Position numbers and translations under genes: made by a program. From positions 6,073,001-6,137,000 of the forward strand of contig NZ_CP054916.1 of the NCBI RefSeq assembly GCF_013364155.1: 64,000 nt of DNA. Reading direction: 5' to 3'. Under the pieces are notes generated by a model. That model was not told the DNA's origin and ran no database searches. It saw nothing but the letters and a program-made list of their open reading frames with translations. Position 1 is the first letter of the stretch; every line of letters begins with the position of its first letter. Positions 11,085-60,052 of this stretch are shown one piece after another. Source of the stretch: Streptomyces sp. NA02950 (lineage in GTDB: Bacteria; Actinomycetota; Actinomycetes; Streptomycetales; Streptomycetaceae).

Positions 11085-11945
<861 letters not shown>

Positions 11946-11950
11946 GGTGA

Positions 11951-40770: not shown

Positions 40771-41907
40771 TTGCTGGGTCCATACGAGGCGCTGGATGAC
40801 GGCCGTATCCGGTTCCGAGGTAACCGCGTTCATGCGCAGATCGATGACGTGAGGAAGCTTGAGGCGCCGGTCTCGAAATTTCGCAGTCGAGTGCGGGACC
40901 TCGCGACGGACAAGGCGTTTGCGAGTATCGCCAAGATCAATCATCGCGTCTTCTCGGCGGCGCATTCTTATTTCGCTGAGCGCGGTGCACTCTTCACTCT
41001 TCTCCCTCTCGTCACGCGCATGATCTCGTCACCGGGTGCCGTGTATGGAAAAGAGGCGATCAGTTACACCTCGGATACTTCTCCTGTCACGCTTTCATGG
41101 TTCGATCTGCCAGAGCGAGCGTTCCTATCCGAGTCTTCGCAGATCTACCTTGAGTTGGCACTGGCTCAGCCAGGAGTGGATGAGGTGTACAGTGTGTACA
41201 ACTCCTTCCGCCTGGAGGAGAGCGACTTCTCTCATCTTTCGGAGTTTCATCACATCGAATTCGAGGGAAGGGTCCCGCAGGAAGATAATCTGCGCTGTGC
41301 GATCGGGCTGCTCTCGTGTATTTTGAGGGAGCTTCTCGAACATGAGGAGGAGTCCCTCGCCCATTTCCTGTCGGCAGACAAAATGGCCGAGTTGGCGTCA
41401 CTGACATCACCGTCGGCCTACACTCATCTGACCCTCCGTGAGGCACTTGACCTTCTTCATGAGGACACTGGTGAAGACCGGTTCCGCCACTTCACCACGG
41501 AAGGAACATTCGGGAGCTGGGAGGAGATCCGGCTGACGTGGATCTGCGGGGGTCCCGTGACCGTCAGTCGTTTTCCCCTTCTTGAGGTTCCCTTCTACCA
41601 CGCGGAGATCCGTAACTCCGACCCCAAGACCGCCCACAACGCGGACATCATCTGGCCCGGTTATCGGGAGATAGTCGGCAGTGGTGAACGCATCGGCGGG
41701 GCTGATGAACTCGCGGCCAAGGCAGAGATCTTCCAGCTTCCGTCGCAGGACTATGCGCCGTACCTGGAGACCCGGGAGCTCGACGGCTGGCGTCGTAGTT
41801 CAGGGTTCGGCCTCGGCTGGGAGCGTTTCCTCCAAGGCGTACTGGAGATGCCGGCGATCTGGGATGTCTGCCATTTCCCGCGAACGCATCTGGCGCTCAA
41901 GCCCTGA
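40771..41907 (+). CDS. Class IIb aminoacyl-tRNA synthetase-like protein (AsnRS/AspRS catalytic core), probable amide-forming enzyme
   Basis: A 378-residue protein with the AsnRS/AspRS catalytic fold. Motif 2 is FRLEESDFSHLSEFHHIEFE, with the Arg and Glu that bind ATP and amino acid. Motif 3 is GFGLGWERFLQGV, with the invariant Arg. Only about 50 residues precede the core, where true AsnRS/AspRS carry an OB-fold of about 100 residues for the anticodon. Such truncated paralogues (as in AsnA-like enzymes) activate an amino acid for non-translational use. It starts at TTG 40771 after GGGGGGAGG. Its composition is poor for Streptomyces: bases 40921-40980 contain 32 G+C in 60. It heads the island operon. 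Confidence 0.85.
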   Translation: MLGPYEALDDGRIRFRGNRVHAQIDDVRKLEAPVSKFRSRVRDLATDKAFASIAKINHRVFSAAHSYFAERGALFTLLPLVTRMISSPGAVYGKEAISYTSDTSPVTLSWFDLPERAFLSESSQIYLELALAQPGVDEVYSVYNSFRLEESDFSHLSEFHHIEFEGRVPQEDNLRCAIGLLSCILRELLEHEEESLAHFLSADKMAELASLTSPSAYTHLTLREALDLLHEDTGEDRFRHFTTEGTFGSWEEIRLTWICGGPVTVSRFPLLEVPFYHAEIRNSDPKTAHNADIIWPGYREIVGSGERIGGADELAAKAEIFQLPSQDYAPYLETRELDGWRRSSGFGLGWERFLQGVLEMPAIWDVCHFPRTHLALKP

Positions 41908-41958
41908 TCATTCATCATGGGCCGTAATCGGTAAGGATTCGGAGAGGGAATACCGTTC

Positions 41959-42810
41959 ATGGTTTTGATCAATGACGAGAGGTTCGAGGAGTTCTTCGAG
42001 CCGTACGCGCAGAACGTGGATGGCTTCTATGAGGCCTCGTACTGGCGGCTCAGCGACGAGGTCATACGCGAGCTGATGCGGCGTCATCTGCATGTGAGTC
42101 CGGACGACCACATCCTGGACGCCGGTGGGGGCACCGGGCGCTGGGCCCAATGGTGCGCTCGCGAGCTCGGGACGCGCGTGACGGTCGCCGACAGGTCGCG
42201 CGCCATGCTGGACCAAGCCGCGAAGAGCCTTGCGAGTGCGGAGGCTGAGCACGTCGCTGGAAGGGTCGAGCTCCTGCACTGCGACATCGAGGACGCTCCG
42301 GATCTTCCCAGCGACTCCTTCGACGGTGTTGTCAGCGTCTACAACATGCTGAGCTTCAACACCGATCCCGGCAAAGCGTTCGACACGATGTATCGGGCTC
42401 TCAAGCGGGGTAAGCACGGCCTGATCATGGGTCAGGGGCTCGCCAACGCCCTGGCGTCGAAGTTCAACAGGGATCAGGCGTCCGCAGACGAGATCCGCAA
42501 GCTCGCTGAGACCTCGATCGTGCAGTGGGCACCGCATGTTCCCCCGCTCCGGGTATTCTCCGCCGCCGACCTCTCCGAGCTGGCGACGCGGGCGGGCTTC
42601 GAGGTGCGCGGCGTCTTCGGGGTCACGACTCTCGTGTCTCCCGGGCCGGAGGACTTCACCTACCCCTACGAGGTGATGAGCGACATCTCCGCCACGCTGG
42701 ACGACCCCGCCCACTTCCAGGTCGCTCTTGAGCAGGAACTCGCCGTGAACGGGATGCCCGGATGGGCCGATCGCGGGGTGAACCTGATGGTCCACGTCTA
42801 CAAGCCATGA
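41959..42810 (+). CDS. Class I SAM-dependent methyltransferase
   Basis: A 283-residue methyltransferase with the SAM site ILDAGGGTGRWAQWCA (motif I), VTVADRSRAML (acidic loop position) and the motif II/III region DGVVSVYNMLSFNTDPG. The substrate is unknown. GGAGAGGG precedes the ATG. It lies 51 bp after the synthetase-like gene, and its stop overlaps the next methyltransferase start (ATGA at 42807), so both are probably cotranslated and may act on the same small molecule. Confidence 0.9.
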   Translation: MVLINDERFEEFFEPYAQNVDGFYEASYWRLSDEVIRELMRRHLHVSPDDHILDAGGGTGRWAQWCARELGTRVTVADRSRAMLDQAAKSLASAEAEHVAGRVELLHCDIEDAPDLPSDSFDGVVSVYNMLSFNTDPGKAFDTMYRALKRGKHGLIMGQGLANALASKFNRDQASADEIRKLAETSIVQWAPHVPPLRVFSAADLSELATRAGFEVRGVFGVTTLVSPGPEDFTYPYEVMSDISATLDDPAHFQVALEQELAVNGMPGWADRGVNLMVHVYKP

Positions 42811-43589
42811 CGCGGGGGACCGGCGACGTGGCGATCCGGGCGGCGGAGCCATACAAGTATCTGGCCCAGGTCTACGACCGGTGGACGGCGGAGAACCAGT
42901 ACGAGGCGTGGTGTGACTTCGTCGAAGAAGAATGGCGGGTCGGTCCCTTCGAGGTCCGTGAGGTTCTCGAACTGTGCTGCGGGACGGGCACCGTCCTGCA
43001 GCACCTGGCCGGGCGCGGCTATTCCGTCACCGGTTTGGATCGCTCCCCCAGCATGCTGGAGCGTGCGCGAGAGAAGTTGGGCCCGGAGTGCCCGCTCATC
43101 CGAGCCGAGCTTCCCGAGGTGCCCGTTGACGGCTCCTTCGACGCGGTCCTCTGTGTCTTCGACAGCATGAACTACCTGTGCGACGAGGCACACGTGCGGG
43201 AGACCATGCGGTCGGTCAGCAGGGTGCTGAAGCCGGGCGGCACCTTCATATTCGACGTCAACTCGCTCCGCAAGCTGCGTGATGTGTTCGGTTCGTCGCA
43301 CTATGGCGATGACTTGGAGGACTTCGCGTACGTCTGGCGGAACAGGTTCGAACCGGCCACCTCCTGTTGCGACTTTCTGATCACGTTGTTCGCACGCTCG
43401 CCGCACGGAACCTATGCCCGGTACGAGGAACGCCACCGGCAGCGTGCCTACGCACAATCCCACCTGGCTTCGCTCGCGAGAAGCGCGGGATTCGACGGCA
43501 TGGTGATCTATGACGACTACAGCCGGCGGCCGACAGGCCCGGAGACGCTGCGGGAGACCTGGGTCCTCACCAAGGCCGTGGAGGCGTGA
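42807..43589 (+). CDS. Class I SAM-dependent methyltransferase
   Basis: A 260-residue methyltransferase with motif I VLELCCGTGTVLQHLAGRG, SVTGLDRSPSML, and later DAVLCVFDSMNYL and VLKPGGTFIFDVNS. It is similar to small-molecule O/N-methyltransferases of antibiotic clusters. The start is the ATG at 42807, inside the ATGA overlap with the upstream methyltransferase, although the frame is open from 42762. Only 3 bp separate it from the MccF-like gene. Confidence 0.9.
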   Translation: MTRGTGDVAIRAAEPYKYLAQVYDRWTAENQYEAWCDFVEEEWRVGPFEVREVLELCCGTGTVLQHLAGRGYSVTGLDRSPSMLERAREKLGPECPLIRAELPEVPVDGSFDAVLCVFDSMNYLCDEAHVRETMRSVSRVLKPGGTFIFDVNSLRKLRDVFGSSHYGDDLEDFAYVWRNRFEPATSCCDFLITLFARSPHGTYARYEERHRQRAYAQSHLASLARSAGFDGMVIYDDYSRRPTGPETLRETWVLTKAVEA

Positions 43590-43592
43590 GGA

Positions 43593-44603
43593 GTGAACGT
43601 ACGGAGTCCTGTCCGGCCGCCGACCCTGCGGCCGCGAGACGTCATCGGTCTCGTAAGCCCCTCCGCACCCGGCGCGCCCGTGGCACCGCAGCGGTTCCGC
43701 CGCGCGACCGATGCCCTGCGGAACATGGGGTTCACTGTCAGGGAGGGATCGCGGACCTGGGGCACCGGCGACAGTGCGGGCACGCCGCAGGAGCGTGCCG
43801 ACGAGATCAACGAGTTCATCCGTGATCCCGGGGTACGGGCGATCGTCGCCACGATCGGGGGGCACACGTGCAACGCGATCCTGCCTCTGATCGACTATGC
43901 CGGGCTACGGGAAGATCCCAAGATCCTCATCGGCTACAGCGACATCACGGCGCTGCTGCTCGCCTGTGTCGCCAAGTCGGACGTCGTGACCTTCCACGGT
44001 CCGACGCTGCTGGCGGAGTTCGGTGAGTTCCCGGCGCCTCTCCCCGGTACCCGGGACGCTTTCCTCACGGCCGTGAGCCAGACCGCCGCCGTCGGCCCGC
44101 TTCAGCAGCCCCCGGAATGGACCGACGAACACCTGCTCTGGGATTCGGAGGACACTCGGGCGCGATCGCTCAAGCCCAGCCGGCCGAGGTCGTGGATCGT
44201 CGAGGGAAAGGGCGTCGGTCCGCTTCTGGGCGGCAATCTCGACACGCTGTCCGTATTGGGTGGCACCGAGTATCTTCCCGATTTCCGTGGCGCGATCCTG
44301 GTGTGGGAGACCTGCCTCACCTCCATCAACAGGATCGACCAGCTTCTGACCCATCTCGAGATGGTGGGCATCATGGACGATCTGGCGGGAATGATGGTGG
44401 GTCATGGATTCCGGGCCTCAGGAGAGTTCGAGGACGCGCTGCACGGTCATGTGGCCGAGCGGTACGCCGACCACGGCTTCCCCGTGGTCGCGGGCGTGCT
44501 GGCCGGTCACTGCGACCCCATGCCGACCTTGCCGCTGGGCTGCCGAGTCGCCCTCGACTCGGAGCGGCGATCGATCGAGGTGATCGATGCCGCTGTTCGA
44601 TGA
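43593..44603 (+). CDS. LD-carboxypeptidase/MccF-family serine peptidase (S66)
   Basis: A 336-residue S66 peptidase. The nucleophile Ser is in LIGYSDITALLLA, the Glu of the triad in AILVWETCLTSI, and the His in GVLAGHCDPMPTLPLG. The N-terminal start PRDVIGLVSPSAPG is typical. The family includes LdcA, which trims peptidoglycan, and MccF, which cleaves the amide between aminoacyl and nucleotide parts of microcin C and gives self-immunity. In a cluster with synthetase paralogues the MccF-type role is attractive but inferred. GTG 43593 follows GTGAGGA. Confidence 0.88.
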   Translation: MNVRSPVRPPTLRPRDVIGLVSPSAPGAPVAPQRFRRATDALRNMGFTVREGSRTWGTGDSAGTPQERADEINEFIRDPGVRAIVATIGGHTCNAILPLIDYAGLREDPKILIGYSDITALLLACVAKSDVVTFHGPTLLAEFGEFPAPLPGTRDAFLTAVSQTAAVGPLQQPPEWTDEHLLWDSEDTRARSLKPSRPRSWIVEGKGVGPLLGGNLDTLSVLGGTEYLPDFRGAILVWETCLTSINRIDQLLTHLEMVGIMDDLAGMMVGHGFRASGEFEDALHGHVAERYADHGFPVVAGVLAGHCDPMPTLPLGCRVALDSERRSIEVIDAAVR

Positions 44604-45051
44604 CGAGGTCAGCGCATCTGCGGCGCGACTGTTGGAAGAGTCCGGCTTCACGCGATTGCTCGCGGTGCCGGCCTTCCCCGTCGGCAGCCCGCAGGGTTTT
44701 CGTTATCCGCTCCGGACCAAGGCGTCAGACGGCAGCGAATGGTATGTGCGCTCCTGGGGCACCGACTTCCAGATCGCGAACCGTGCCTGGCTCCGCCGGG
44801 GCCTCTCCGCGTCCTTCTCGCTCGGCTGGGCCGTTCTGCCGGAAGGGCAGACCGATCGGCTGCTCATGATTGAGACCTTTGAGACGGATGGTCCTTCGGC
44901 ATCCGAGCACAGAGAGAGAGTGCTGGGCTGCCTTGAGCCTTATGTGCGGCGGTCGGCCGTGGCGGAGAGCAGTCGATGGGGTCGTACGACGTTGCGTATC
45001 GCGGCGTTGCTCAGGTCCGATCCGCAGACCGTACGGGAGTGCTCCTCGTGA
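44587..45051 (+). CDS. Hypothetical protein of the aaRS-rich cluster
   Basis: A 154-residue protein that I do not recognise. It overlaps the MccF-like gene by 17 bp, and its stop overlaps the start of the ProRS-like gene (GTGA at 45048), so all three are tightly coupled. The sequence is soluble and mixed alpha/beta, without signal, Cys pairs or a nucleotide motif; it has a Trp/Tyr-rich centre (SEWYVRSWGTDFQIANRAWL). Tight coupling to the next gene suggests a partner subunit or substrate-binding accessory. Confidence 0.72.
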   Translation: MPLFDDEVSASAARLLEESGFTRLLAVPAFPVGSPQGFRYPLRTKASDGSEWYVRSWGTDFQIANRAWLRRGLSASFSLGWAVLPEGQTDRLLMIETFETDGPSASEHRERVLGCLEPYVRRSAVAESSRWGRTTLRIAALLRSDPQTVRECSS

Positions 45052-46283
45052 TCGGTGACGCCTACCTTCGGACTCTCGAGGACGCCCGGATCGTCCTGCC
45101 CGGATCCTACGGCCGGGGAATCCCGGTGTGGCAAGACGCCGGGCTCCAGTTGGCCCGTCGTCTGGTATCGGGTTACGAGTCGGCTCTCCGGCAATGGTGG
45201 GAACCCAGCATTGTCGAGCACCCCTTTCTCATGCCCGCCGCCGAGTACAAAGACGTTTTTGGCGACTATGCCAATGTTTACGAGGTGCAGGTTCCTGAGG
45301 CGGGCGGCTCCTGTGTGCTCGCGCCCGACAACATGCCGGCCAGCGTCGGATGGCTGCGGGAGCGGGGGAGTGACGGCCCGTTGGTGGCCGTCGGGGGTCT
45401 GTTGCGCGTACTGCCGGGCGGGGCCCAGCCGCTCTTTCGGGATCGGCACATCTGGCCGGCCGTCCAAGTGACGCATCTCGTGGGCGAGCAGAGTGCCCTC
45501 GACGAGCTGGAGCGCCATCAGCTGGCGATCACGCGGTTGCACCAGTTGCTGTGTCTCCCGGTGGTGACCGTGCGGACCGGGAACCTCGCCTCCTACGGGA
45601 GGATGACCTATCTGACGGTCAGCTGCCTGCCCGATGGGCGGCCCACGGTCACGGCGACGCTCTACGTGATGTCGGGCCGCTACCGTGACAGGCTGCTCAC
45701 CGACACCGAGGTGATCGATGTCGGATTCACCGGGAAACTCCTGGCTCTCGTCGCCCTGCACCACCGGGACTCCGCCGGACTGGTCCTCCCATCTGCCCTC
45801 GCTGATGCGCAGGTCGGAGTGCTCGTCGGGAAGCAGGACCGGAGGATCCAGGAGTGGCGGACAGAGCAGGCCCACGAAGGCGTCCGTGTCCGCCTGGTGA
45901 ACTCCGACCCCCGGCGCTCCGTCCGCCGGCGTGCGGAGCGGCGGCTGCTTCGTCAGGGCGTTCCGCTCATTCTCGGCGTCCGGACCGAAGGTCTACGCAT
46001 CGCGCGAAGGTACCCCCTTCTCCGATCAGATCTTCCCGCTCTGCCGGAGTCACGGACGCTGCACGGTGAACTGGCCGCGCACGACGATCGTCTCAGACGG
46101 TCCTCCGCCGACCGGTTCTCGGCCGGTTTGAGGGAGGCAGGACGTCTGGTCGCACGCTGCCGCGAGTGTGCGGCAACGAACACAGAGGAGATCTTCGGCT
46201 GGGTCGTTCCAGAGGTGGAGGCGCCCTGCGGCAAGTGCGGAGTGCCCGGGAACGAAGCCCTTCTGGGCGGACGTTTCTATTGA
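45048..46283 (+). CDS. Prolyl-tRNA synthetase-like protein with altered catalytic motifs
   Basis: A 411-residue class IIa synthetase-like protein resembling archaeal-type ProRS. A catalytic-domain-like N-terminal two-thirds is followed by GLVLPSALADAQVGVLVG at the usual start of the anticodon-binding domain, and a C-terminal Cys pair set (CRECAA and CGKCG) like the ProRS zinc domain. By eye, motif 2 (FRYE in ProRS) reads LRVL, the LRPTSE region reads LAPDNM, and the motif 3 Arg is Lys (GFTGKLLAL). It may have lost tRNA charging or been repurposed. The GTG at 45048 overlaps the previous stop; the frame open from 44976 is ignored. Confidence 0.75.
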   Translation: MIGDAYLRTLEDARIVLPGSYGRGIPVWQDAGLQLARRLVSGYESALRQWWEPSIVEHPFLMPAAEYKDVFGDYANVYEVQVPEAGGSCVLAPDNMPASVGWLRERGSDGPLVAVGGLLRVLPGGAQPLFRDRHIWPAVQVTHLVGEQSALDELERHQLAITRLHQLLCLPVVTVRTGNLASYGRMTYLTVSCLPDGRPTVTATLYVMSGRYRDRLLTDTEVIDVGFTGKLLALVALHHRDSAGLVLPSALADAQVGVLVGKQDRRIQEWRTEQAHEGVRVRLVNSDPRRSVRRRAERRLLRQGVPLILGVRTEGLRIARRYPLLRSDLPALPESRTLHGELAAHDDRLRRSSADRFSAGLREAGRLVARCRECAATNTEEIFGWVVPEVEAPCGKCGVPGNEALLGGRFY

Positions 46284-46313
46284 ATCCGCGACGGGGACGG
46301 GAAGGGGCTCGAT

Positions 46314-47234
46314 ATGCGATCGCTACGCGATTCCAGTGATGTGCGCGACGACCCGGACGAACTGACGGGTCGTCTTCGTGAGGCCGGCTACCTCTACCTG
46401 CCCGGCACACTCGACCTGGGCAGGGTCGAAGCCGTTTCCGCCGACCTCCGTGCCGCGTTGTGCGGGCTCGGCTGGCTGGACGATTCCGGCTCGACCCGTG
46501 TGCGTTCCCGCGACCGCAGATTCACCAGCGAGTCGATGAGCGGAGGATACGGTGCGCTACAGAGTGTCGAGTCGTTCCATGCGCTGGCACACGACCGGGT
46601 GCTCGTGGACCTGATGTCGGGGATCCTCGGTGGTCCGGCCTTCTGCCATCCGGCACGGGTGGCCAGGGTCGCGTTCCCCGCCGACGACGCGGGGGGCTTC
46701 TTCACCAGGCCGCACCAGGACTTCGCGGGCCTTCATGTCGCCACGGACGTGCTCACGATCTGGATCCCATTCACGTCCTGCTCGGGCGACCACCAGGGAC
46801 TGTGCGTCCTTCCAGGGTCTCACCGGGAGGGGTTCCGGCGTCCCGATGCCACGATGGGCGGGGCCCGTCCTCTGTACGTGCGCGAGGAACCGGACGATCC
46901 GCGGTGGGCGACGGCCGACTACCGTCCCGGCGACATCCTCGTCTTCCACAGCCTCACGGTGCACGCGGCGATGACCAATCGCAGTGACCGGGTCCGGCTG
47001 TCGGCGGACTTCCGGTACCAACTGCCGACGGACCCGATGCGGCCGGAGTTCCTGCACCCGCACGGATGGCCGCGCACCCCCGACTGGCCGGAGTTGACAG
47101 GTGGATGGACATCGCAACGGTGGATCTCGGTGCCTGCCGAGGTTCCGCTGATCCCTCCACCGCGCGATCTCGCATACATGGAGATATTGGAGAAGATCGA
47201 GCCGCCACGGTCGCGAATACTCTCCGGCTCATGA
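46314..47234 (+). CDS. Phytanoyl-CoA dioxygenase (PhyH)-family Fe(II)/2-oxoglutarate oxygenase
   Basis: A 306-residue PhyH-type oxygenase. The iron site has His and Asp in RPHQDFAGLH and the distal His in SLTVHAAMTNRS; the following RVRLSADFRYQ supplies the Arg that binds 2-oxoglutarate. PhyH enzymes in antibiotic clusters hydroxylate, epimerise or desaturate small substrates. It lies 30 bp after the ProRS-like gene and overlaps the next gene by 4 bp (ATGA at 47231). Confidence 0.88.
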   Translation: MRSLRDSSDVRDDPDELTGRLREAGYLYLPGTLDLGRVEAVSADLRAALCGLGWLDDSGSTRVRSRDRRFTSESMSGGYGALQSVESFHALAHDRVLVDLMSGILGGPAFCHPARVARVAFPADDAGGFFTRPHQDFAGLHVATDVLTIWIPFTSCSGDHQGLCVLPGSHREGFRRPDATMGGARPLYVREEPDDPRWATADYRPGDILVFHSLTVHAAMTNRSDRVRLSADFRYQLPTDPMRPEFLHPHGWPRTPDWPELTGGWTSQRWISVPAEVPLIPPPRDLAYMEILEKIEPPRSRILSGS

Positions 47235-49198: not shown

Positions 49199-49210
49199 GC
49201 GTGGTGGGAT

Positions 49211-51569: not shown

Positions 51570-52315
51570 ACATCTTCTTCTACTGGTCCGGTCAGGAATT
51601 CGATTTCAGCAATTATCTTGCCGTCGCGTCCGCCGCACGTCACACGTCCGGCGCGGACGTCGTCGTGGTGGTGGACGAGCGCCCGGTGGACAACGTTCAT
51701 TTCCGAAGGGTCGAGCGACTCCCCGGGGTGACGGTGGAACCCCTGAGCCTCGCTTCGCTGGTGTCGCCGGAATTGCGGCTTCTCTACCACCGCATGCGCT
51801 TCGTGGCGCACCGTTCGGACCTCGTGAGGCTCGCACTGCTCGCCAAGTACGGCGGGATGTATCTCGATACGGACACGCTGACCGCCGGTGACCTCAGCCG
51901 GACGCCCGAGGTCCTGCTACTGGAGGACGGCAAGATCGTCTACCTCGGCTGCTTCGCCCTGCCCGCGGGGCACCCGGTGCTGACCGCCACGCTGGCCGCC
52001 CTGGAGGCCATGCCAGAGGCCGACCTGGATGTCTACCAGAGCATTATTCATCTCTGGACACGCATCGTGCGACAACGCTCACCCACAGTGGAGTTTGGTG
52101 ATCACGATGCTTACTTTCCTGTACACTGGAAAAATTGGGAGGACGTGTTCACCGAGCGACGACCAGTGGACTCCATCCAGGTCCTGCACCACTACGGCTA
52201 CTACAGTCGACAGTACACACGTACGATGGATGAAGAGTGGGTCAACAGCAACGACTGTCTGTTCAGTGATCTCGCTCGGCCCCTCTTGCGTGACCTGCGC
52301 CGCCTGGGCTGGTAG
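51566..52315 (+). CDS. DXD-motif glycosyltransferase (GT32-like)
   Basis: A 249-residue protein of the 'glycosyltransferase sugar-binding region containing DXD motif' family. FVAHRSDLVRLALLAKYGG leads into MYLDTDTLT, whose DTD binds the metal and UDP-sugar. The N-terminus FFYWSGQEFDF is usual for the group. The GTG start overlaps the PIG-L stop (GTGA). It is the last gene of the tightly coupled run that began near 40.8 kb. The acceptor is unknown. Confidence 0.88.
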   Translation: MNIFFYWSGQEFDFSNYLAVASAARHTSGADVVVVVDERPVDNVHFRRVERLPGVTVEPLSLASLVSPELRLLYHRMRFVAHRSDLVRLALLAKYGGMYLDTDTLTAGDLSRTPEVLLLEDGKIVYLGCFALPAGHPVLTATLAALEAMPEADLDVYQSIIHLWTRIVRQRSPTVEFGDHDAYFPVHWKNWEDVFTERRPVDSIQVLHHYGYYSRQYTRTMDEEWVNSNDCLFSDLARPLLRDLRRLGW

Positions 52316-52420
52316 GACGAGTCGGTCAGTCTCCTGTTTCCGGTGTGTGAGCAGGAGGGATAGTCTGTCCCCAAGGATGCGCCGGGGGACCGGCGAACGG
52401 CGGACAGTTATGAGGGCGAA

Positions 52421-53986
52421 GTGAGCAACGGCAGTTTCATCTCGGCCACGATTCCATACGTGAATGCCCGACCTCATCTGGGGCATGCGCTGGAGTACGT
52501 TCAGGCGGACTGCTTCGCCCGCTTCCAGCGCTTGCAGGGGCGCGATGTCTTCTTCCTCACCGGCTCGGATGAAAACAGCCTGAAAAACGTCATTGCCGCT
52601 GAGGCCGAGGGAATTTCGACGCGGGAGCTCGTAGATCGGAACGTCGCTTACTTTCAGGACCTGATCGAACAGCTGAAGCTGAGCAAGGACGACTTCATCC
52701 GGACGAGTGTCGACCAGCGCCACATTGAGGGAGCGACCCGGGTCTGGGAGTTGATTGCCGCCAATGGGGACATCTACAAGAGGTCCTACGAGGGACTCTA
52801 CTGCGTCGGCTGCGAGCAGTTCTACTCGCCTGCGGAGCTGGTAGACGGTAACTGCCCGGAGCACCTTGTTCCGCCGGAGCTGGTCAGCGAGGAGAACTAC
52901 TTCTTCCGGCTCTCCCGTTATCAGAATCAGCTTTTGGACGCGTTCAAGAGCGGCGAGCTGCGGGTGGTACCGAAGAGCCGTTACAACGAGGTCGTGAGCT
53001 TCGTCGAGTCCGGGCTCATGGATATCAGCATTTCCCGTTCCACCGAGCGTGCGCGGGGCTGGGGCATCCCGGTGCCGGGCGATCCGAGCCAGGTGATCTA
53101 CGTCTGGATCGACGCCCTCACCAACTACATCACCGCTCTGGGATGGGCTGCGGGGGACGACCTCTACAAGCGTTATTGGGAGGAGGCGGACTCCCGCACC
53201 CACGTCCTCGGCAAAGGAGTTACGCGCTTCCACTCGGTCTATTGGCCGGCGATGCTGATGTCGGCCGGTCTCCCGCTGCCCACGGAGACGGTCGTCCACG
53301 GTTACATCACGGCCAACGGCCGGAAACTCAGCAAGTCGCTGGGGAACGCGGTCGATCCCGTGGGAGTGATCGACAAGTACGGCATCGACGCGGTGCGGTA
53401 CGCGTTGCTCGCTGATCTCTCGCCGTTCGAGGACGGGGATTTCAATGAGGAGCGGCTCGTCCAGCGCTACACCACGGATCTGGCCAACGGTCTCGGAAAT
53501 CTGGTGAGCCGTGTGGCCTCCATGATCGGACGTTATCGGGACGGCACGATTCCGCAGGCCGCGGGCGAGCTCGAGGAGCAGGACGAGCGGCTTGCCCGAC
53601 AGGTGGCGGAGAGCGTTGAGGGGGTGGTGACGGCGATGAGCCGCTACGACCACCGTGAGGCGCTGAGTCACGTGGGCGACCTGATCCGTGCCTCGAACTC
53701 CTATGTCGACAGCAATGCGCCATGGCACCTTGCCAAGGCCGCGGCCGCGGGCGACGAGACGGCGTCCGCCCGTATGGACACCGTTTTCCTGTACCTCACA
53801 GGTGCCATCCGTCAACTGGGCCTGTTGTTGCTGCCCTTCCTGCCGACGTCGGCGGAGGAGATCCTCAAGGTGGTGGGCGAGGAGAGCCATCGCCTCGCCG
53901 AGCCCTCGGCCTGGCTCGACGGCCTCCCGGGCAGGGCAATTGAGAGGCCCGAGCCGATCTTCCCTCGACTGGATGTGGTGGCCTGA
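52421..53986 (+). CDS. metG: Methionyl-tRNA synthetase
   Basis: A 521-residue class I synthetase. The HIGH motif is PHLGHAL (His 19 to His 22) and KMSKS reads RKLSKSLGN (about residues 301-309). A zinc-knuckle insertion has YCVGCEQFYSPAELVDGNC; VIYVWIDALTNYI is characteristic of MetRS, and an anticodon-binding helical domain ends the protein without a C-terminal dimerisation domain. It charges tRNA-Met. It sits inside the island after a 105-bp gap, so it may be a resistant or cluster-specific second copy rather than the housekeeping gene; the latter cannot be excluded. GTG start with GAGGGCGAA upstream. Confidence 0.92.
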   Translation: MSNGSFISATIPYVNARPHLGHALEYVQADCFARFQRLQGRDVFFLTGSDENSLKNVIAAEAEGISTRELVDRNVAYFQDLIEQLKLSKDDFIRTSVDQRHIEGATRVWELIAANGDIYKRSYEGLYCVGCEQFYSPAELVDGNCPEHLVPPELVSEENYFFRLSRYQNQLLDAFKSGELRVVPKSRYNEVVSFVESGLMDISISRSTERARGWGIPVPGDPSQVIYVWIDALTNYITALGWAAGDDLYKRYWEEADSRTHVLGKGVTRFHSVYWPAMLMSAGLPLPTETVVHGYITANGRKLSKSLGNAVDPVGVIDKYGIDAVRYALLADLSPFEDGDFNEERLVQRYTTDLANGLGNLVSRVASMIGRYRDGTIPQAAGELEEQDERLARQVAESVEGVVTAMSRYDHREALSHVGDLIRASNSYVDSNAPWHLAKAAAAGDETASARMDTVFLYLTGAIRQLGLLLLPFLPTSAEEILKVVGEESHRLAEPSAWLDGLPGRAIERPEPIFPRLDVVA

Positions 53987-54121
53987 CCGCCGGCAGAAGC
54001 CCGAGGCGGCTACGTGTGGGCGGGCACGGACGTGACGGCGCGTGCTGGTCTTCTGCGCCGGTTCTTGTAGAACCTGCTCGTCTTCTGGCTTGGATGCGAC
54101 CGGGTTCGTTGGACCGTTCGA

Positions 54122-55099
54122 TCAGCGGGCCCCGGCCCGCCACAGGTCGAGCACCGCTCGTTCTCTGGCTGGGCTGAGACCTGACTTGCGTTCACGGTGG
54201 GAGCCGAGTGCTCGTTCCCACGCAAGCGCGGCGCGAGCGGTGTCGGCCAGTGCGCGAAGCCTGAGGCCGTTGTTGAGCGTCGGCAGCGGATCTCGAGCCA
54301 TGAGTCCGGCATCGTCCGGGCGGCGCACCCACAGAGGCAGGGAATCCTGTCCGGACCATGGCACCACTCCGGCCGAGTGCAGGAACTCCTGTGGAACCCA
54401 GACCAGTTCGCTGGGGACATCCAGCGCCGCCGCCATACTCCCAAGCGCGCTTCCTATGCCTACCGGCGTCCCGACGGCGTCGAACGTGCCGGACCGCCGC
54501 CGCTCGGCGGACTCAACGAGCCATTCCGCGAGGTCCCTGACGTCGATCCATTGGATGAGATCCTCCGGTCTGCCCGGCGCGAGGACGGTGCCGCCCCTGG
54601 CGAGTCGCTCCGGCCAGTATCCGAATCTGTCCGAGGGGTCCCCCCAGCCCGCGATCAGTCCCGGCCGGACGATGAGGGCCCGAGTGCCGAACCGCAGTCT
54701 CACCGCCTGCTCCGATGCCAGCTTGGACGGGGCGTACGGACCGCCTCCATCGGGTGCGATGAGTTCCGCGTCCGTGGTGGCACCGGGTGTGGACCGATCG
54801 CGATAGACGAGGCATGTCGAGACGAACGTCCAGTGCCCCGCCCTGTCATACATCCGATCGGTGAGCAGCCGGACCCCCCGATACGGGCGGCGCGCGACAT
54901 CGATCACCGCGTCGAACGTTCCCCGGAGCTGTGGGTCCGGATCGGGAACACTCCAGTCGACCCGTACATGGGTCGCTCCGGGCGGGGGGTCGCCGGACGT
55001 GCCCCGAGTCAGGCAGACGACCTCATGACCACGAGCCAGCGCAATCTCGGCCACCGCACGCGACAGGAAGGCCGTTCCTCCTATGACCAGTACACGCAC
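54122..55099 (-). CDS. NAD-dependent epimerase/dehydratase-type reductase (extended SDR)
   Basis: A 325-residue extended short-chain dehydrogenase. The Rossmann motif is VLVIGGTAFLSRAVAE (the third Gly is Ser), and the catalytic Tyr/Lys pair is in GPYAPSKLASEQAV. It resembles nucleotide-sugar epimerases and reductases of natural product clusters. GTG 55099 follows GGAGAGAGG; the frame open to 55198 is upstream DNA. It is the only island gene on the minus strand, convergent with metG and divergent from the methyltransferase at 55307. Confidence 0.86.
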   Translation of the reverse strand: MRVLVIGGTAFLSRAVAEIALARGHEVVCLTRGTSGDPPPGATHVRVDWSVPDPDPQLRGTFDAVIDVARRPYRGVRLLTDRMYDRAGHWTFVSTCLVYRDRSTPGATTDAELIAPDGGGPYAPSKLASEQAVRLRFGTRALIVRPGLIAGWGDPSDRFGYWPERLARGGTVLAPGRPEDLIQWIDVRDLAEWLVESAERRRSGTFDAVGTPVGIGSALGSMAAALDVPSELVWVPQEFLHSAGVVPWSGQDSLPLWVRRPDDAGLMARDPLPTLNNGLRLRALADTARAALAWERALGSHRERKSGLSPARERAVLDLWRAGAR

Positions 55100-55166
55100 G
55101 CCACTTGCCTCTCTCCGGGGTTGGTACGGCGTCGTCGATCGCAGCGTCGGCGGGCAAACTCCTGGC

Positions 55167-55195
55167 TTGCATGACGGCTGACGCAATATTACGAT
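55167..55195 (+). promoter_or_regulatory. Sigma-70-type promoter of the 55307 gene
   Basis: TTGCAT (55167-55172), a 17-bp spacer and TACGAT (55190-55195). The 12-mer ATTACGATCATG that spans the -10 recurs in the promoter at 56450-56478. Confidence 0.6.
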
Positions 55196-55306
55196 CATGC
55201 GCCTAGGCGTGGCACACCCCCTTCTCAGTTCGGAGAGTTCAAGAGCTGCGATCTTGAAAGGCCGCAGTTCAGCCCACCCGTCCTTTCGTCAGAGGGAGTG
55301 GCCCCG

Positions 55307-56437
55307 GTGAGCAGGCGGCAAGTCGTTCGCTGGACCGAAGCCGATGAAGATCGGTCCGCTCGTTGGTGTTCCGAGGGCGGGACGCCGCCGCCGGAGCATG
55401 TGGTCATCGCGGACGAGCGCATGACGGCCGACACTGCCTACCGCTTGGCTTGCGATGGCACCGCGCTGTTGTGGCGCGACGACTTCCAGAGTGCTCGCGC
55501 ACTGCTGCGGGAGATGAAGCAACGCGCTGACCAAGCGCTGCGGCGCCGGAAGCTGAGCCAGTCGCCGAGTGAAGCGTTCTGCCAGTATCGCCAGGCGCGG
55601 TCCGAACGCGCGGACACACTCGGGATGTTGCTGGTGCCGTTCGAGCGTAACGGTGTTATTCCCCTGCGGCGGGCGCCCGATGTGCAGCAAGCCTGTAGGG
55701 AGGCGTACGGCCCGGGAGACGAACCGTTCGTGGCCTCGCTCCGAGAATTGCTGCATCTGATCTGGGCGCATGAGCAACGCCAGAAGGGCTTTGAGGTTCC
55801 GGCGCTGGGGGACCGCATCCATCCGCATTACGGTGTGTTCACGCCGGTGCTGCGAGGCGAGTACATGGACCTGGTGGCCGAGGCGCCGTTGCCCTCGCGG
55901 ACGCTGGCGTTCGATGTCGGCACGGGCACCGGTGTACTCACTGCGATCCTGGCCCGCCGGGGCGTCAAGCGAATCGTGGCGACGGATCAGGAGCCGCGCG
56001 CCCTTGCCTGCGCGCAGGAGAACCTCACCCGGCTGGGGCTGGCCGACCGGGTGGAATTCATGCAGACGGACCTCTTTCCCCCGGGGCGCGCCGCGCTCGT
56101 GGTGTGCAACCCGCCGTGGGTTCCGGGGCAGCCGCACTCTCCCGTGGAGCGTGCGATGTTCGACCCGGAAAGCCGGATGCTGCGAGGCTTCCTCAGCGGT
56201 CTGGCAGCGCACTTGGAGCCGGGTGGTGAGGGCTGGCTGGTGATCTCGGACTTCGCCGAGCACGTTGGGCTGCGACCGCGCGCTGAGTTGCTCGCGGCCT
56301 TCGACGCGGCGGGATTGAAGGTCGTGGCGCGGACGGATGTCAGGCCGAGAGCTCCCCATGTCTCGGATGACAGCGATCCGTTCCCCGCGGTGAGCGCGGT
56401 GGAAGTGACATCGCTCTGGCGTCTCACCCTTCGCTGA
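55307..56437 (+). CDS. Class I SAM-dependent methyltransferase with NPPW motif
   Basis: A 376-residue protein. The C-terminal catalytic half has motif I LAFDVGTGTGVLTAILARRG, RIVATDQEPRAL and the amide/amine-methylating motif VVCNPPWVPG, as in PrmC/HemK and other NPPY/W enzymes that methylate planar nitrogen. The N-terminal half of about 170 residues is helical, Arg-rich and unrecognised. GTG 55307 was chosen over GTG 55298 because GGGAG then has normal spacing. Target protein, RNA or small molecule is unknown. Confidence 0.85.
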   Translation: MSRRQVVRWTEADEDRSARWCSEGGTPPPEHVVIADERMTADTAYRLACDGTALLWRDDFQSARALLREMKQRADQALRRRKLSQSPSEAFCQYRQARSERADTLGMLLVPFERNGVIPLRRAPDVQQACREAYGPGDEPFVASLRELLHLIWAHEQRQKGFEVPALGDRIHPHYGVFTPVLRGEYMDLVAEAPLPSRTLAFDVGTGTGVLTAILARRGVKRIVATDQEPRALACAQENLTRLGLADRVEFMQTDLFPPGRAALVVCNPPWVPGQPHSPVERAMFDPESRMLRGFLSGLAAHLEPGGEGWLVISDFAEHVGLRPRAELLAAFDAAGLKVVARTDVRPRAPHVSDDSDPFPAVSAVEVTSLWRLTLR

Positions 56438-56449
56438 ATTTCGGGTGCC

Positions 56450-56478
56450 TTGTCTGCTGGCAACCACCACATTACGAT
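56450..56478 (+). promoter_or_regulatory. Sigma-70-type promoter of the phosphotransferase gene
   Basis: TTGTCT (56450-56455), a 17-bp spacer and TACGAT (56473-56478), about 117 bp upstream of the ATG at 56595. It shares ATTACGATCATG with the promoter at 55167-55195. Confidence 0.6.
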
Positions 56479-56594
56479 CATGACGAAGCATCGTGAGGCG
56501 GAAGGCACACGCCTGTTTCTCCCCCTCAAGAAATCCTGGCTCGCCATGCCGACTGGTCGGACGCGTGGCCCCCTGCGGAGGTAAAGAAGAACCG

Positions 56595-57557
56595 ATGCAT
56601 GTGCCGACCCCGCCGCCGCAGCAGACGCCCACGTCAATGTGCCGGGTGGATTGGACGGCACTGCCTCGAAAGGTTCGTCTCGCCATCGAGGACAAGTTGG
56701 GGTCACCGGTCGTCTCCTCGGAGACCCAGCACGGCGGTTTCTCGCCTGGTATGGCTGCCATTGTGCGCTGTGCCGATGAGTCCGAGTACTTCGTCAAAGC
56801 GGTAAACGCCGACCTCAACCCGGTATCGCCGCAGATGTATCGGGAGGAGGCGTCCTTCTCGGCCGCACTGCCGAGGGGATTGCCCGTGCCGCGTCTCCAC
56901 CATGTCCACGATGACGGTGACTGGATCGCCCTCGTCTTCGACGCCGTCAAGGGAAAGACCCCCGATGTTCCCTGGAGGGTGGCTGATGCCCAGCGGCTTA
57001 TGGAAACGATACAGATCCTGGCTGCCACACCCCTCGCCGGGGAACTGACCGGCCTGCCTTCCGTTTCAGACCGTCTTGAGCGCAGTTTCGGCGCCTATCG
57101 CCGAGTGGCTGAATCACCGCATCACCTCTCCGCCTGGGAACGCAGGAACATCGATCGGTTGATCCCGGCGGCCGAGTCCGCCCTGGAGTTCGTGGCAGGG
57201 GACTCCCTCGTGCATCTCGATCTGCGTGCGGACAACATCGTCCTGGCCCACGACGGAGGCGCGTACATCGTCGATTGGTCTTGGGCCTCGGCCGGAGCCT
57301 CATGGCTGGACAAGGTCTGCTTCCTCGTGAATGTCGCGACCTACGGGGGAGATGCCGAGTGTTTTGTCGCCGGCGACCCGTTCCTCGCGTCTGTGCCGCC
57401 GGACCATATCACCGCCTTCCTCATCGGATTGAGCGGGATGTGGACCGAAGCCGTGGCCGAACCGGCACCGCCCGGTCTGCCCGCCCTGCGCGCCTTCCAG
57501 CGGCTCGAAAGAGATGCCACTCTCGCGTGGGTCCGCTCTCGTACGGGATGGGAGTGA
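56595..57557 (+). CDS. Aminoglycoside phosphotransferase-family kinase
   Basis: A 320-residue APH/ChoK-type kinase. The catalytic loop reads LVHLDLRADNIVL (catalytic Asp and metal-binding Asn) and the metal Asp is in YIVDWSWASAG. The N-lobe has SEYFVKAVNAD with the ATP-site Lys. Such proteins phosphorylate antibiotics, sugars or biosynthetic intermediates. The start is ATG 56595 with GGAGG somewhat far upstream; the frame is open from 56493. It could protect the producer by phosphorylating the product. Confidence 0.87.
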   Translation: MHVPTPPPQQTPTSMCRVDWTALPRKVRLAIEDKLGSPVVSSETQHGGFSPGMAAIVRCADESEYFVKAVNADLNPVSPQMYREEASFSAALPRGLPVPRLHHVHDDGDWIALVFDAVKGKTPDVPWRVADAQRLMETIQILAATPLAGELTGLPSVSDRLERSFGAYRRVAESPHHLSAWERRNIDRLIPAAESALEFVAGDSLVHLDLRADNIVLAHDGGAYIVDWSWASAGASWLDKVCFLVNVATYGGDAECFVAGDPFLASVPPDHITAFLIGLSGMWTEAVAEPAPPGLPALRAFQRLERDATLAWVRSRTGWE

Positions 57558-57621
57558 CGGTCTCGAACCGCGACAGCCACCACGTCCTCGCCGGTATGCG
57601 CATGATCAGGAGAGTTGGCAA

Positions 57622-58473
57622 ATGAGCGAAATCCTTGTCTCTGTCCATGGCAACAAGCTCGACATTGAGCCCAGACTGGTGGTCATCGACACGGACACGG
57701 CCACTGCCCGTGAGTCAGAGTTCGCACTGCCTGCCGGATTCCAGCGATACATGGGGCTGGCGGTCAGCGGCCGGTGGATCTACATCCTCGCAATGACCAT
57801 CGACGACCGGTCCTCGCTGGTCGCCGTCGACAGGGCCGGTGAGGAACAGGCACTCGTGTGTCCGCTACCCGATGTTCTGGACGGCCACAGCGTGCTCGCC
57901 GCCGATCGAGACCTCTACGTGGTCTCCTCGGGGACGGACGAACTGGTGCGGTTCTCTCTCTCGGACGGACGCCCGGATCCCGGGCAGCGGCGGACAGCAT
58001 GGCGCGCAAGCGACGCGGGGCGCGACACACACCATGTCAACAGCGTTCTCCAGCTCGACGGGAACATCGTGGTGTCCGGCTTCGGGCCCTCACCCACGGG
58101 ATCCTGGGCCGACGCTTACGACGGCTACATCGTCGACGTGACGGACAACCGGCCCTTGGTCACCGGCATCTCGCACCCTCATTCCGTCACGGCATGCAAC
58201 GGCCTCCTGTACTACTGCGAGTCCGGCAGCGGAAGGTTCTGCTCCGAAAAGGGCACCATCATTAACCTCGATGGTTATGTCCGTGGCGTCTGCTGGCTCT
58301 CAGATGATCTCGTATGTATCGGCACCAGTGCCGGGCGCACTCGAGACAGGAAAGGCCATTACCAGGCTGAAGATTGTGCCGTGTGGATCGTTGACGTAAC
58401 CCGCGGCGCCGTTGCCACCCGGATCCCACTGGGGCAGTTCGGCCCGGAGATATACGACATCATCCTTTTGTAG
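57622..58473 (+). CDS. DUF4915-type beta-propeller-like protein
   Basis: A 283-residue protein made of repeated beta-strand blades, such as LVVIDTDTATARESEFALP, GRWIYILAMT, RDLYVVSSGTDELVRFSL, THHVNSVLQLDGNIVVSGFG and HPHSVTACNGLLYYCESGSG. This is the look of DUF4915/TIGR03032-like proteins found in some glycan and antibiotic clusters. No catalytic role is known to me. AGGAGAG precedes the ATG at 57622. It lies 64 bp after the phosphotransferase on the same strand, so the two are probably co-transcribed. Confidence 0.72.
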   Translation: MSEILVSVHGNKLDIEPRLVVIDTDTATARESEFALPAGFQRYMGLAVSGRWIYILAMTIDDRSSLVAVDRAGEEQALVCPLPDVLDGHSVLAADRDLYVVSSGTDELVRFSLSDGRPDPGQRRTAWRASDAGRDTHHVNSVLQLDGNIVVSGFGPSPTGSWADAYDGYIVDVTDNRPLVTGISHPHSVTACNGLLYYCESGSGRFCSEKGTIINLDGYVRGVCWLSDDLVCIGTSAGRTRDRKGHYQAEDCAVWIVDVTRGAVATRIPLGQFGPEIYDIILL

Positions 58474-58541
58474 CGCGAAAGGACTGGGCATGTCATTGCG
58501 ATGGGAAGCTGGTCTCGCGAAGGTTTGTGGAGGTACGCCCA

Positions 58542-59186
58542 GTGGCGTCACGCACGGCTGATGACGCCGAGCCCCCGACGGCGACGTTCTCCAGGGAGTA
58601 CTTCGACCGCCGCTATACCCAAGACCCCGACCCCTGGGGGCTGGCCACCAAGTGGTACGAACGCCGGAAGTACGCGCTGACCATCGCGTCACTGCCCAGG
58701 GCGCGGTACCGAAACTGCTTCGAGCCCGGCTGCGCGATAGGAGAACTCACCCGGCTGCTGGCTCCACGCTGTGCGCGTCTGCTGGCTGTCGACTTTGCGG
58801 AAGGGGCCTTGGAACAGGCCCGTTCGGCTGTGCGCGAGTTCGAACACGTCGAAGTCAAGCGGTCGAAGCTGCCTGAGCAGCTGCCCAGCGACCGTTACGA
58901 CCTCATCGTCGTCAGTGAGATTCTGTATTACTTCTCCAGCGAAGACCTCAATCTGATGCTGGACGGCCTGGTTGACCGACTGGACACCGGCGGCGACCTT
59001 GTGACGATCCACTGCCGGGCTTCCGACCGTCGTCACGGTTACGATGGGTTTAATGTGCATTGTTCGATCGACGCGCGCCGGGAACTGGAGAGGCTCGTAC
59101 ATCACGAGGACGAGGATTTCGTGCTGGATGTATTTCGCCGATGGGACGGCAGCGGTCATGGGGAATCGGCCCATCCCGCCTCGTAA
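58542..59186 (+). CDS. NodS-like SAM-dependent methyltransferase
   Basis: A 214-residue methyltransferase of the NodS/nodulation type. The opening FDRRYTQDPDPWGLATKWYE is diagnostic of that group, followed by motif I CFEPGCAIGELTRLLA and LLAVDFAEGALEQA. NodS N-methylates the deacetylated glucosamine end of chito-oligosaccharides, so an amino-sugar N-methyl role would fit the PIG-L and glycosyltransferase genes of this island. GTG 58542 follows GGAGG with 8 nt spacing. Confidence 0.85.
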   Translation: MASRTADDAEPPTATFSREYFDRRYTQDPDPWGLATKWYERRKYALTIASLPRARYRNCFEPGCAIGELTRLLAPRCARLLAVDFAEGALEQARSAVREFEHVEVKRSKLPEQLPSDRYDLIVVSEILYYFSSEDLNLMLDGLVDRLDTGGDLVTIHCRASDRRHGYDGFNVHCSIDARRELERLVHHEDEDFVLDVFRRWDGSGHGESAHPAS

Positions 59187-59245
59187 CCCGGGCCCGGGTT
59201 GGGCAGACCTCCACGCAGTCCTGACGTGAAGGCAGGTGATGGCTC

Positions 59246-60052
59246 ATGACGTCGGTCCTACCGCGTATGGGGTGGGCTGATCTGCCGGGCGCGGTACGTG
59301 AAGCGGTCGAGGCGCGTACCGGCCCGGTCACGGAGGCGGAGCGCATCGAGATCGGAGAGCAGTCCGAGTTCGCGTCTGTGCTGGACACATCGGTCGGCAG
59401 GGTCTTCGCCAAAGGCACCCTCATCGATGGCCGCCTGGCCGCGCGGCTGTGTACCGAGGCCAGGATCAATCCCCATGTGGCGCGACTCTCCCCCCGGCTT
59501 CTGTGGCGGGTGGAGGCCGGGGAATGGCTCGTCCTCGGGTTCGAGTATGTGCCGGGCAGGCACGCCGACTACTCGCCCGGATCCGCGGACCTGGTCAGAT
59601 TGGGGAGGGCGGTGGCGGCGCTCCAGGAGCTGCGCTGTCCGGATCATGTGTCCAGGCGGGTGGAACAGCGGTGGGCAGGGCTCACGGGGCAGGCTCATAT
59701 GATGGCGGGTGAGACGCTGATCCATATGGATTTGAACCCCGGCAATGTCCTGATGACCGAGGGCCGGGCGTACTTCGTCGACTGGGCTCTGGCGTGCAAG
59801 GGCGCCGACTGGGTAGAACTCGCCCTGCTCGTTCCCCGGTTGATAGGGCATGGACACAGCCCCCGTGAGGCGGAGGAGTGGGCAGCGCAGTTCCGGCCTT
59901 GGAGCCATGTGACGGCCAAGGCTCTGGACGTTGTCGCGGACGCCGAGTCCCTCAAGTGGCAGAAGACGGCAGCCGACTGGCCGTTCCCGCACATAGTACG
60001 GACCGCGAAGGCAGCCCGGGACTGGGCACATTGGCGGCGGCTACGCGGCTAG
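59246..60052 (+). CDS. Phosphotransferase (APH family)
   Basis: A 268-residue APH-type kinase, a distant paralogue of the one at 56595. The catalytic loop is LIHMDLNPGNVLM and the metal Asp is in YFVDWALACKGADW. The N-lobe is short, with FAKGTLIDGRLAARL in the Lys region. It is probably a self-resistance or tailoring kinase. It follows the NodS-like gene by 59 bp, and a ribosome site (GGCAGGTG) precedes the ATG. It is the last gene of the cluster before the conjugation-type ATPase. Confidence 0.85.
   Translation: MTSVLPRMGWADLPGAVREAVEARTGPVTEAERIEIGEQSEFASVLDTSVGRVFAKGTLIDGRLAARLCTEARINPHVARLSPRLLWRVEAGEWLVLGFEYVPGRHADYSPGSADLVRLGRAVAALQELRCPDHVSRRVEQRWAGLTGQAHMMAGETLIHMDLNPGNVLMTEGRAYFVDWALACKGADWVELALLVPRLIGHGHSPREAEEWAAQFRPWSHVTAKALDVVADAESLKWQKTAADWPFPHIVRTAKAARDWAHWRRLRG

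Follow-up and report, generated by a model that had tools for sequence, protein, structure and literature searches.

Gene content and setting of the cluster

The window analysed here is the whole 64,000-nucleotide stretch of Streptomyces sp. NA02950 DNA (G000:C1:6073001-6137000; host genome of 9.77 Mb in two contigs), and it carries a block of genes built around an asparaginyl-tRNA synthetase-like (AsnRS-like) enzyme, a prolyl-tRNA synthetase-like (ProRS-like) enzyme, an MccF-like S66 peptidase and a complete methionyl-tRNA synthetase (MetRS), together with methyltransferases, a PhyH-type oxygenase, an aminotransferase fusion and several sugar-type genes (Table 1). The core of this block is homologous to the genes for agrocin 84, a "Trojan horse" antibiotic that blocks an aminoacyl-tRNA synthetase, and the block is likely to be an agrocin-84-type antibiotic cluster, probably acquired horizontally, with MetRS as the likely target of its product, as judged from sequence.

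Table 1 Genes of the conserved block, with the evidence for each assignment
Feature	Position	Strand	Evidence
AsnRS-like enzyme without anticodon-binding domain (AgnA role)	40771..41907	+	PF00152 1.5e-28
Class I methyltransferase	41959..42810	+	PF13649 1e-17; 53-81% identity in L002, L003, L004, G023
Class I methyltransferase, AgnC3-like	42807..43589	+	AgnC3 34%, 3e-45; start set by ATGA overlap
MccF-like S66 peptidase, AgnC5-like	43593..44603	+	PDB MccF 3gjz 5.7e-57; AgnC5 36.5%, 6e-61
154-aa conserved partner of ProRS-like gene	44587..45051	+	in 8/9 related loci; no Pfam match
ProRS-like enzyme, AgnC1-like	45048..46283	+	AgnC1 32%, 9e-26; profile against 1nj1 9e-15
PhyH-type oxygenase, AgnC6-like	46314..47234	+	PF05721 7e-22; AgnC6 30%, 9e-34; G023 51%
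N-terminal part without assignment + class III aminotransferase (fusion)	47231..49198	+	PF00202 4e-28; 45% in G023
FkbM methyltransferase	49211..50044	+	PF05050 2e-10
Radical SAM/SPASM protein	50041..50793	+	PF04055, PF13186; 87% in Actinomadura
PIG-L deacetylase	50790..51569	+	PF02585 1e-11; ATGA overlap
Glycosyltransferase (GT32) with DXD region	51566..52315	+	PF04488 1e-10; GTGA overlap
MetRS, proposed self-resistance enzyme	52421..53986	+	PF09334 3e-99; Anticodon_3 3e-9; NF008900 550 bits; KLSKS loop
NAD-epimerase-like protein	54122..55198	-	weak NCBIfam matches only (no Pfam scan); 71% in Actinomadura
PrmC/HemK-like class I methyltransferase, doubtful member	55298..56437	+	PF05175 9e-13
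APH-like kinase	56595..57557 (start assumed; also listed from 56493)	+	weak NCBIfam, no Pfam match; 65% in Actinomadura
DUF4915 protein	57622..58473 (start assumed)	+	PF16261 2e-17
NodS-like class I methyltransferase	58527..59186	+	PF05401 2e-16; 72% in Actinomadura
APH-type kinase	59246..60052	+	PF01636 4e-9; 65% in Actinomadura
TraG/TraD-type conjugative coupling protein, end of conserved block	60232..62208 (start assumed)	+	PF02534 6e-38; 70% at same end in Actinomadura

Most of the gene inventory given in a preliminary description of this stretch was recovered by Pfam and NCBIfam, including the PhyH, FkbM, radical SAM/SPASM, PIG-L and DUF4915 proteins and four further class I methyltransferases (at 41959, 42807, 55298 and 58527), but the class III aminotransferase of 47231-49198 had been left unlisted, and the epimerase and one of the two APH kinases (56493) are seen by weak NCBIfam matches only, the other kinase being matched by Pfam. 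One of the two glycosyltransferase domains was found (PF04488); the second, in 47231-49198, was rejected as a confirmed call, as the first 290 amino acids of that protein have no Pfam match and no PDB match better than E 0.68. The methyltransferase at 55298 resembles a host gene and may not be a member of the cluster, since a 63% identical homologue is encoded elsewhere in the host genome and no tblastn match to it was found in the related Actinomadura cluster. No polyketide synthase, non-ribosomal peptide synthetase, carrier-protein or terpene-synthase domain was found in Pfam scans of the plus-strand genes, as had been stated, and the reported ATGA/GTGA-type overlaps are seen at five junctions (42807, 45048, 47231, 50790 and 51566).

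Between 40771 and 62208, third-position G+C was measured in 19 plus-strand genes and lies at 0.69-0.84; in the remaining open reading frames called in the window it is 0.83-0.95, with one exception (11154-11969, 0.69). Because of this lowered value and the recurrence of the same gene set in other genomes, the block is not attributed to chance; the cluster is real and was probably acquired horizontally. A decayed or silent island without present function would share the low third-position G+C, and would suit the lack of a transporter in Pfam scans of the block, but the listed genes are open reading frames matched at 65-87%, from the AsnRS-like gene to the TraG/TraD gene beyond 60052, in the cluster of Actinomadura sp. 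NBRC 104425 (the exceptions being DUF4915, 41% over 68 residues, and 55298, with no match), and such an island is barely credible. Direct repeats of at least 20 nt were considered as boundaries and rejected; none bounds the block, and one internal pair is present.

Homology to agrocin 84 genes and co-inheritance

A plasmid search with the ProRS-like protein returned Agrobacterium and Rhizobium plasmids only (five records), including AgnC1 of pAgK84, the agn region of which holds agnA, agnB2 (agrocin-resistant leucyl-tRNA synthetase, LeuRS), agnC1, agnC3, agnC5 (MccF-like) and agnC6 (PhyH). In blastp comparisons with this region, window proteins match AgnC1, AgnC3, AgnC5 and AgnC6 (Table 1) and also AgnA (26%, 4e-20), while a profile of the ProRS-like family (A1) matches AgnC1 at 1.7e-36. 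Agrocin 84 is described as a stable analogue of leucyl-adenylate that bears an uptake group at N6 (PMC7916415), AgnA as a truncated AsnRS homologue without the anticodon-binding domain, and AgnB2 as conferring self-immunity (PMC4392301). The assignment of the cluster to the agrocin 84 family is strong, and the label "undescribed" given to it earlier is not supported, the core being homologous to published genes.

The A1 profile found eight loci in GTDB contigs, and a genome search added G023 (a third match in that search, G050, is apparently the genome of L009, with the same coordinates). Among these nine other loci, the AsnRS-like, the MccF-like and the 154-aa gene are each present in eight and a MetRS in six (L002, L003, L005, L006, L008 and G023), in agreement with the earlier proposal of a co-inherited, non-modular cluster; the failure to co-occur that this proposal had named as its own refutation was therefore not observed. 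L009 has none of the four; its contig is 13.4 kb long, and its ProRS-like match comes in two pieces. The AsnRS-like gene product is 39-43% identical to AgnA in six sister loci (L003, L004, L006, L007, L008 and G023) and more remote from it in L005 (29% over 114 residues). Genes of the ProRS-like family are rare, occurring in three of 392 Streptomyces genomes, the host included, and in the host alone among 394 genomes of the class; likewise, an AsnRS-like match at E <= 1e-60 was obtained in one of 296 relatives, which is the host.

The FkbM, radical SAM, PIG-L and GT32 genes have no tblastn match (E < 1e-8) in 40 kb around the G023 cluster, although G023 keeps the core, so the sugar genes look accessory. 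The product had been proposed to be an aminoacylated amino-sugar or nucleoside-like compound; the nucleoside-like, aminoacylated part of this proposal pointed in the right direction, but an amino-sugar could at most be an added portion of it. A cluster for an amino-sugar or another aminoacylated product, in which the synthetase-like enzymes form amide bonds and no synthetase is attacked, would account for the GT32, PIG-L, FkbM, radical SAM, NodS and APH-type genes; it is very improbable, given the missing G023 matches, the resemblance of the core to a nucleotide-antibiotic cluster and the nature of MetRS as a translational enzyme.

The AsnRS-like, ProRS-like and MccF-like proteins

The AsnRS-like protein of the window is matched by an AgnA-clade profile at 1.5e-45. 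Of 458 related proteins the best 120 were listed, and 18 were aligned with the window protein; in the AsnRS-like tree, which has long branches, the window copy groups with those of Actinomadura, S. scabiei, S. niveus and others, apart from AgnA. Beyond this clade, the next relatives among the matches listed have 51-60% identity and are mostly nameless metagenome proteins, those with names being from archaea (Nanoarchaeota, Pacearchaeota and Woesearchaeota). These next relatives are short AsnRS-like proteins of about 378 amino acids (P0014-P0120), and the named ones belong to DPANN archaea. In G023 an AgnA-clade enzyme occupies the AsnRS-like slot, though this cluster is otherwise close to that of the window (MetRS 61%, with the aminotransferase fusion and PhyH as in Table 1), so the AgnA step may have been taken over in the window lineage by a foreign but equivalent AsnRS-like enzyme.

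The identity of the ProRS-like protein is weak by single sequence (NCBIfam 6e-4, PDB 0.019) and firm by profile, in which residues 5-377 align with ProRS 1nj1 and the archaeal-type layout is mostly kept; its structure model (predicted local distance difference test, pLDDT, 92) gives a Foldseek match of 3.8e-27. Four cysteines and the last tyrosine are invariant in 37 aligned rows (37 of 40 proteins; P0127, P0154 and P0156 excluded). The motifs of a genuine ProRS are not retained: in the alignment with 1nj1, GLSDR falls against GFTGK and TSE against DN, the motif 3 arginine being replaced by lysine and the TxE loop altered. As both are presumably functional motifs of ProRS, the enzyme is unlikely to charge tRNA-Pro. 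The AsnRS-like and ProRS-like proteins are probably diverged biosynthetic paralogues.

The MccF-type assignment made earlier for the S66 peptidase is borne out by its best PDB match (Table 1), and the GYSD serine and a late histidine, which are taken here to be catalytic, are aligned in seven of seven S66 sequences. The 154-aa protein shows a weak resemblance to the class II synthetase core (Foldseek 3.6e-5; model pLDDT 73).

The methionyl-tRNA synthetase of the cluster and its host

Three biosynthetic proteins of synthetase fold had been described, of which the AsnRS-like and ProRS-like ones are indeed diverged, but a role shared by all three was rejected, the third being a full MetRS and the only intact translational copy found in the host. 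A ProRS identity for this third synthetase (52421-53986) was also rejected. A PF09334 scan of the host genome gave the window gene as the sole intact MetRS, plus pieces at C1:4507459-4508350 (L017, L068). Judged against the intact Streptomyces enzymes L056, L057, L059, L025 and L026, to which two long pieces are 75-84% identical, the first ~29 residues are absent, the frame changes near residue 235 and ~83 codons are gone; the housekeeping type-2 MetRS of the host is a pseudogene. The cluster MetRS, as the only intact one found, presumably charges host tRNA-Met.

The cluster is also present in Actinomadura sp. NBRC 104425, where the cluster copy is likewise the only MetRS and the single-piece PF09334 match of 471-484 bits seen in 19 of 19 sampled congeners is absent; this absence is less certain than the pseudogene because the genome is a draft, and the lost enzyme is called type 2 from its PF09334 score pattern rather than from an NCBIfam scan. 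As a baseline, a MetRS is present in 99 of 100 relatives. Streptomyces species vary in MetRS type, and by a reading of the tabulated matches, the type lost here is found in 36 of 61 rows from the same genus.

In NCBIfam, the cluster MetRSs are nearest to PRK12267 and the lost type (L059) to PRK00133. A complete synthetase thus lies inside the cluster, PRK12267-like and unlike the PRK00133-like relative of the pseudogene. The types MetRS1 and MetRS2 are distinguished in the literature (PMC7916415), and PRK12267 and PRK00133 would correspond to them. That the cluster MetRS is an immunity or self-resistance enzyme appears well supported.

In the MetRS tree, a single group (93/90) unites six of the seven cluster MetRSs, with L077 as its sister (98/100), and the seventh (L003) stands among ordinary housekeeping-type enzymes and seems to be a second recruitment of MetRS (seven rows, L044, L065, L082 and L088-L091, were left out of the tree). 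The KMSKS-loop sequence is KLSKS or KLSKT in the six grouped enzymes, KISKS in L077, KMSKS in L003 and in a further 16 PRK12267-like rows that contain the loop, and KFSTS in six Streptomyces-type rows of the lost kind. Agrocin-resistant AgnB2 has KQSKS at this place, and in LeuRS this loop is a point of contact with the drug (PMC5059758). A change in the KMSKS loop is suggestive only as a sign of resistance.

Other MetRS genes were found apart from such clusters. No MetRS was seen in the stretch examined of S. aculeolatus (L004), which has a PRK12267-like enzyme on another contig, falling in a tree group of ordinary enzymes, plus one of the other type. Around the G040 MetRS (L077; L092, L093), which the tree places next to the cluster group, 30 kb of sequence gave no AsnRS-like, ProRS-like or MccF-like match. 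In four further Actinomadura genomes there is an extra MetRS match in two pieces and no ProRS-like gene, so a MetRS of this sort does not by itself mark a window-type cluster. Split MetRS-like matches at G023:C1:3507530-3508194 (L064) are perhaps another broken copy.

The wider AgnA family

A plasmid search with AgnA matched 33 records (the best 30 of 33 were listed), and nine regions, including pAgK84, were examined. The Xenorhabdus locus has a LeuRS, a class II-like gene and an LD-carboxypeptidase gene; those of Exiguobacterium and Peribacillus have an alanyl-tRNA synthetase (AlaRS) and an AlaRS-like gene, the latter locus also an S66 gene; Streptomyces NBC_01707 has a Pro/His/Thr-type gene and an LD-carboxypeptidase gene, with no full synthetase seen; and an S66 gene is present in Bradyrhizobium. 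In S. changanensis, NBC_00829 and Pantoea, no synthetase, class II-like or S66/LD-carboxypeptidase gene is annotated nearby. Pfam assigns the second enzymes of Xenorhabdus and NBC_01707 to tRNA-synt_2b and those of Exiguobacterium and Peribacillus to tRNA-synt_2c; among the second enzymes only AgnC1 matches the A1 profile. On a Pantoea agglomerans plasmid (L101 9443-11038; H15-H20), the AgnA-like sequence forms part of a longer protein whose annotation is GNAT acetyltransferase, and a TonB-dependent siderophore receptor is encoded near it.

AgnA-clade genes occur in 19 of 392 Streptomyces genomes sampled, the more distant copy of the host not being counted. In 18 Streptomyces AgnA loci, searched with MetRS, LeuRS, AlaRS and the host valyl-tRNA synthetase and LeuRS as the only synthetase queries (others would be missed), an MccF-like gene was found in 12 (one an edge fragment) and a LeuRS or AlaRS in three (one an edge fragment). 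Some AgnA loci besides agn therefore have a full synthetase of another kind than MetRS, a LeuRS in Xenorhabdus and L136 and an AlaRS in Exiguobacterium, Peribacillus and L133. The last of these, a Streptomyces locus (L133 2990-14154), combines its AlaRS and an AlaRS-like gene with APH-like and epimerase-like genes similar to those of the window, and is possibly an AlaRS-directed sister.

The TraG/TraD gene is rare in the genus (one of 101 same-genus genomes, the host itself), and a plasmid search with it gave a single distant match. It adjoins the window and Actinomadura clusters (70%) and lies near AgnA in G412 (74%), so that this gene (60232-62208 of the window; L140 12310-14232) accompanies three AgnA-type or window-type clusters. 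Its rarity and its position beside or near three such clusters make conjugative spread plausible.

Proposed biosynthesis, target and alternatives

The product, its target and its phosphoramidate (P-N) chemistry can be inferred from the gene set. The AsnRS-like enzyme would activate asparagine or aspartate with ATP and start a 5'-phosphoramidate nucleotide, and the ProRS-like enzyme would activate or transfer the amino-acid part to give a stable aminoacyl-adenylate mimic, the amino-acid part being methionyl-like here and leucyl-like in agrocin 84; which of the two steps, P-N formation or acylation, comes first is likewise proposed. Tailoring would fall to the methyltransferases, PhyH and the aminotransferase, while GT32, PIG-L, radical SAM, FkbM and NodS may add a sugar-like part, perhaps for uptake. 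Immunity would have two layers, the cluster MetRS substituting for the sensitive type-2 enzyme and the MccF-like peptidase cleaving the active compound, thereby detoxifying or trimming it. The preliminary description had seen the assembly and the product class correctly but had missed the links to MetRS and agrocin.

Several observations weigh against this interpretation. For the genes agnC2, C4, C7, D1, D3, E1, E2, F and G, tblastn against the window gave no match at E <= 1e-4, the AsnRS-like enzyme lies outside the AgnA clade (26-30% identity; tree), no transporter was found in the block, several AgnA loci show no extra synthetase, and the Xenorhabdus cluster LeuRS keeps KMSKS. Loss of the housekeeping MetRS is seen in only two tested carriers of a window-type cluster and could have been neutral after a second MetRS arrived; G023 retains another housekeeping-type MetRS. 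Some evidence favours a cluster of agrocin type with another target, in which MetRS either was carried along and replaced the housekeeping copy by chance or supplies Met-tRNA or Met-AMP: MetRS is missing from the stretch examined in three of the nine related loci (L004, L007 and L009), a type-2-like MetRS is retained beside the cluster MetRS in four sister-cluster genomes (S. ferralitis, S. silvisoli and two Catenulispora), and the second enzyme is ProRS-like, not MetRS-like. However, agn has its resistant LeuRS in the corresponding place and other AgnA clusters have other synthetases, MetRS was apparently recruited twice, and the ordinary MetRS was lost in two window-type carriers of two genera; another target is considered unlikely. 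The preferred interpretation remains a MetRS-directed, agrocin-84-type cluster.

A broader hypothesis is put forward tentatively, as somewhat short of an even chance. AgnA-type clusters from several phyla would then belong to one family, whose products are nucleotide antibiotics. The target (Leu, Ala or Met) would be revealed by the full-length synthetase encoded in the cluster, and the P-N nucleotide, once started by the AsnRS-like enzyme, would receive its amino acid from a second synthetase-like enzyme of class II (ProRS-like, AlaRS-like or other). The window would then encode a natural MetRS-directed Trojan horse, for which two carriers gave up their type-2 MetRS, and the AgnA step would have passed to an enzyme with DPANN relatives, suggesting related chemistry in the short archaeal "AsnRS" proteins.

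Agrocin 84 is generally presented as an isolated case. Its kind would not be rare if the interpretation holds, given the frequency of AgnA-clade genes in the Streptomyces genomes sampled; a neighbouring synthetase would predict the drug target from sequence, and both P-N antibiotic assembly and the swapping of an essential synthetase would become testable.

Comparison with known systems

No natural MetRS-directed nucleotide and no actinomycete agrocin-type cluster was found in a search of open-licence literature, in so far as its accessible excerpts go. Phosmidosine is an actinomycete phosphoramidate nucleotide (PMC6429109), and no paper describing its gene cluster was found in that search. 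With microcin C, the window shares an S66 peptidase whose nearest PDB match is MccF, an enzyme that cleaves the aminoacyl-nucleotide (PMC7916415); a microcin C cluster was rejected, no ThiF/MccB-type domain being found in Pfam scans of the window genes. Self-resistance copies of synthetases in or near clusters are known from AgnB2 and also from albomycin, borrelidin, mupirocin and indolmycin (PMC7916415); the window has in common with them a complete synthetase in or near the cluster and differs in that it is a MetRS and that the housekeeping gene has been lost in two carriers.

The closest system is agrocin 84 (agn, pAgK84, Rhizobium rhizogenes K84), with which the window shares homologues of AgnA, AgnC1, AgnC3, AgnC5 and AgnC6 and a complete synthetase of an extra type. 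In contrast to agn, it has a MetRS in place of the resistant LeuRS, an AsnRS-like enzyme of another clade, added sugar-type genes, the aminotransferase fusion and the 154-aa partner, and a chromosomal location. Because of the MetRS in place of the resistant LeuRS, the cluster is called agrocin-84-type and not agrocin 84 itself; it is best read as an actinobacterial branch of this type, with MetRS as the likely target.

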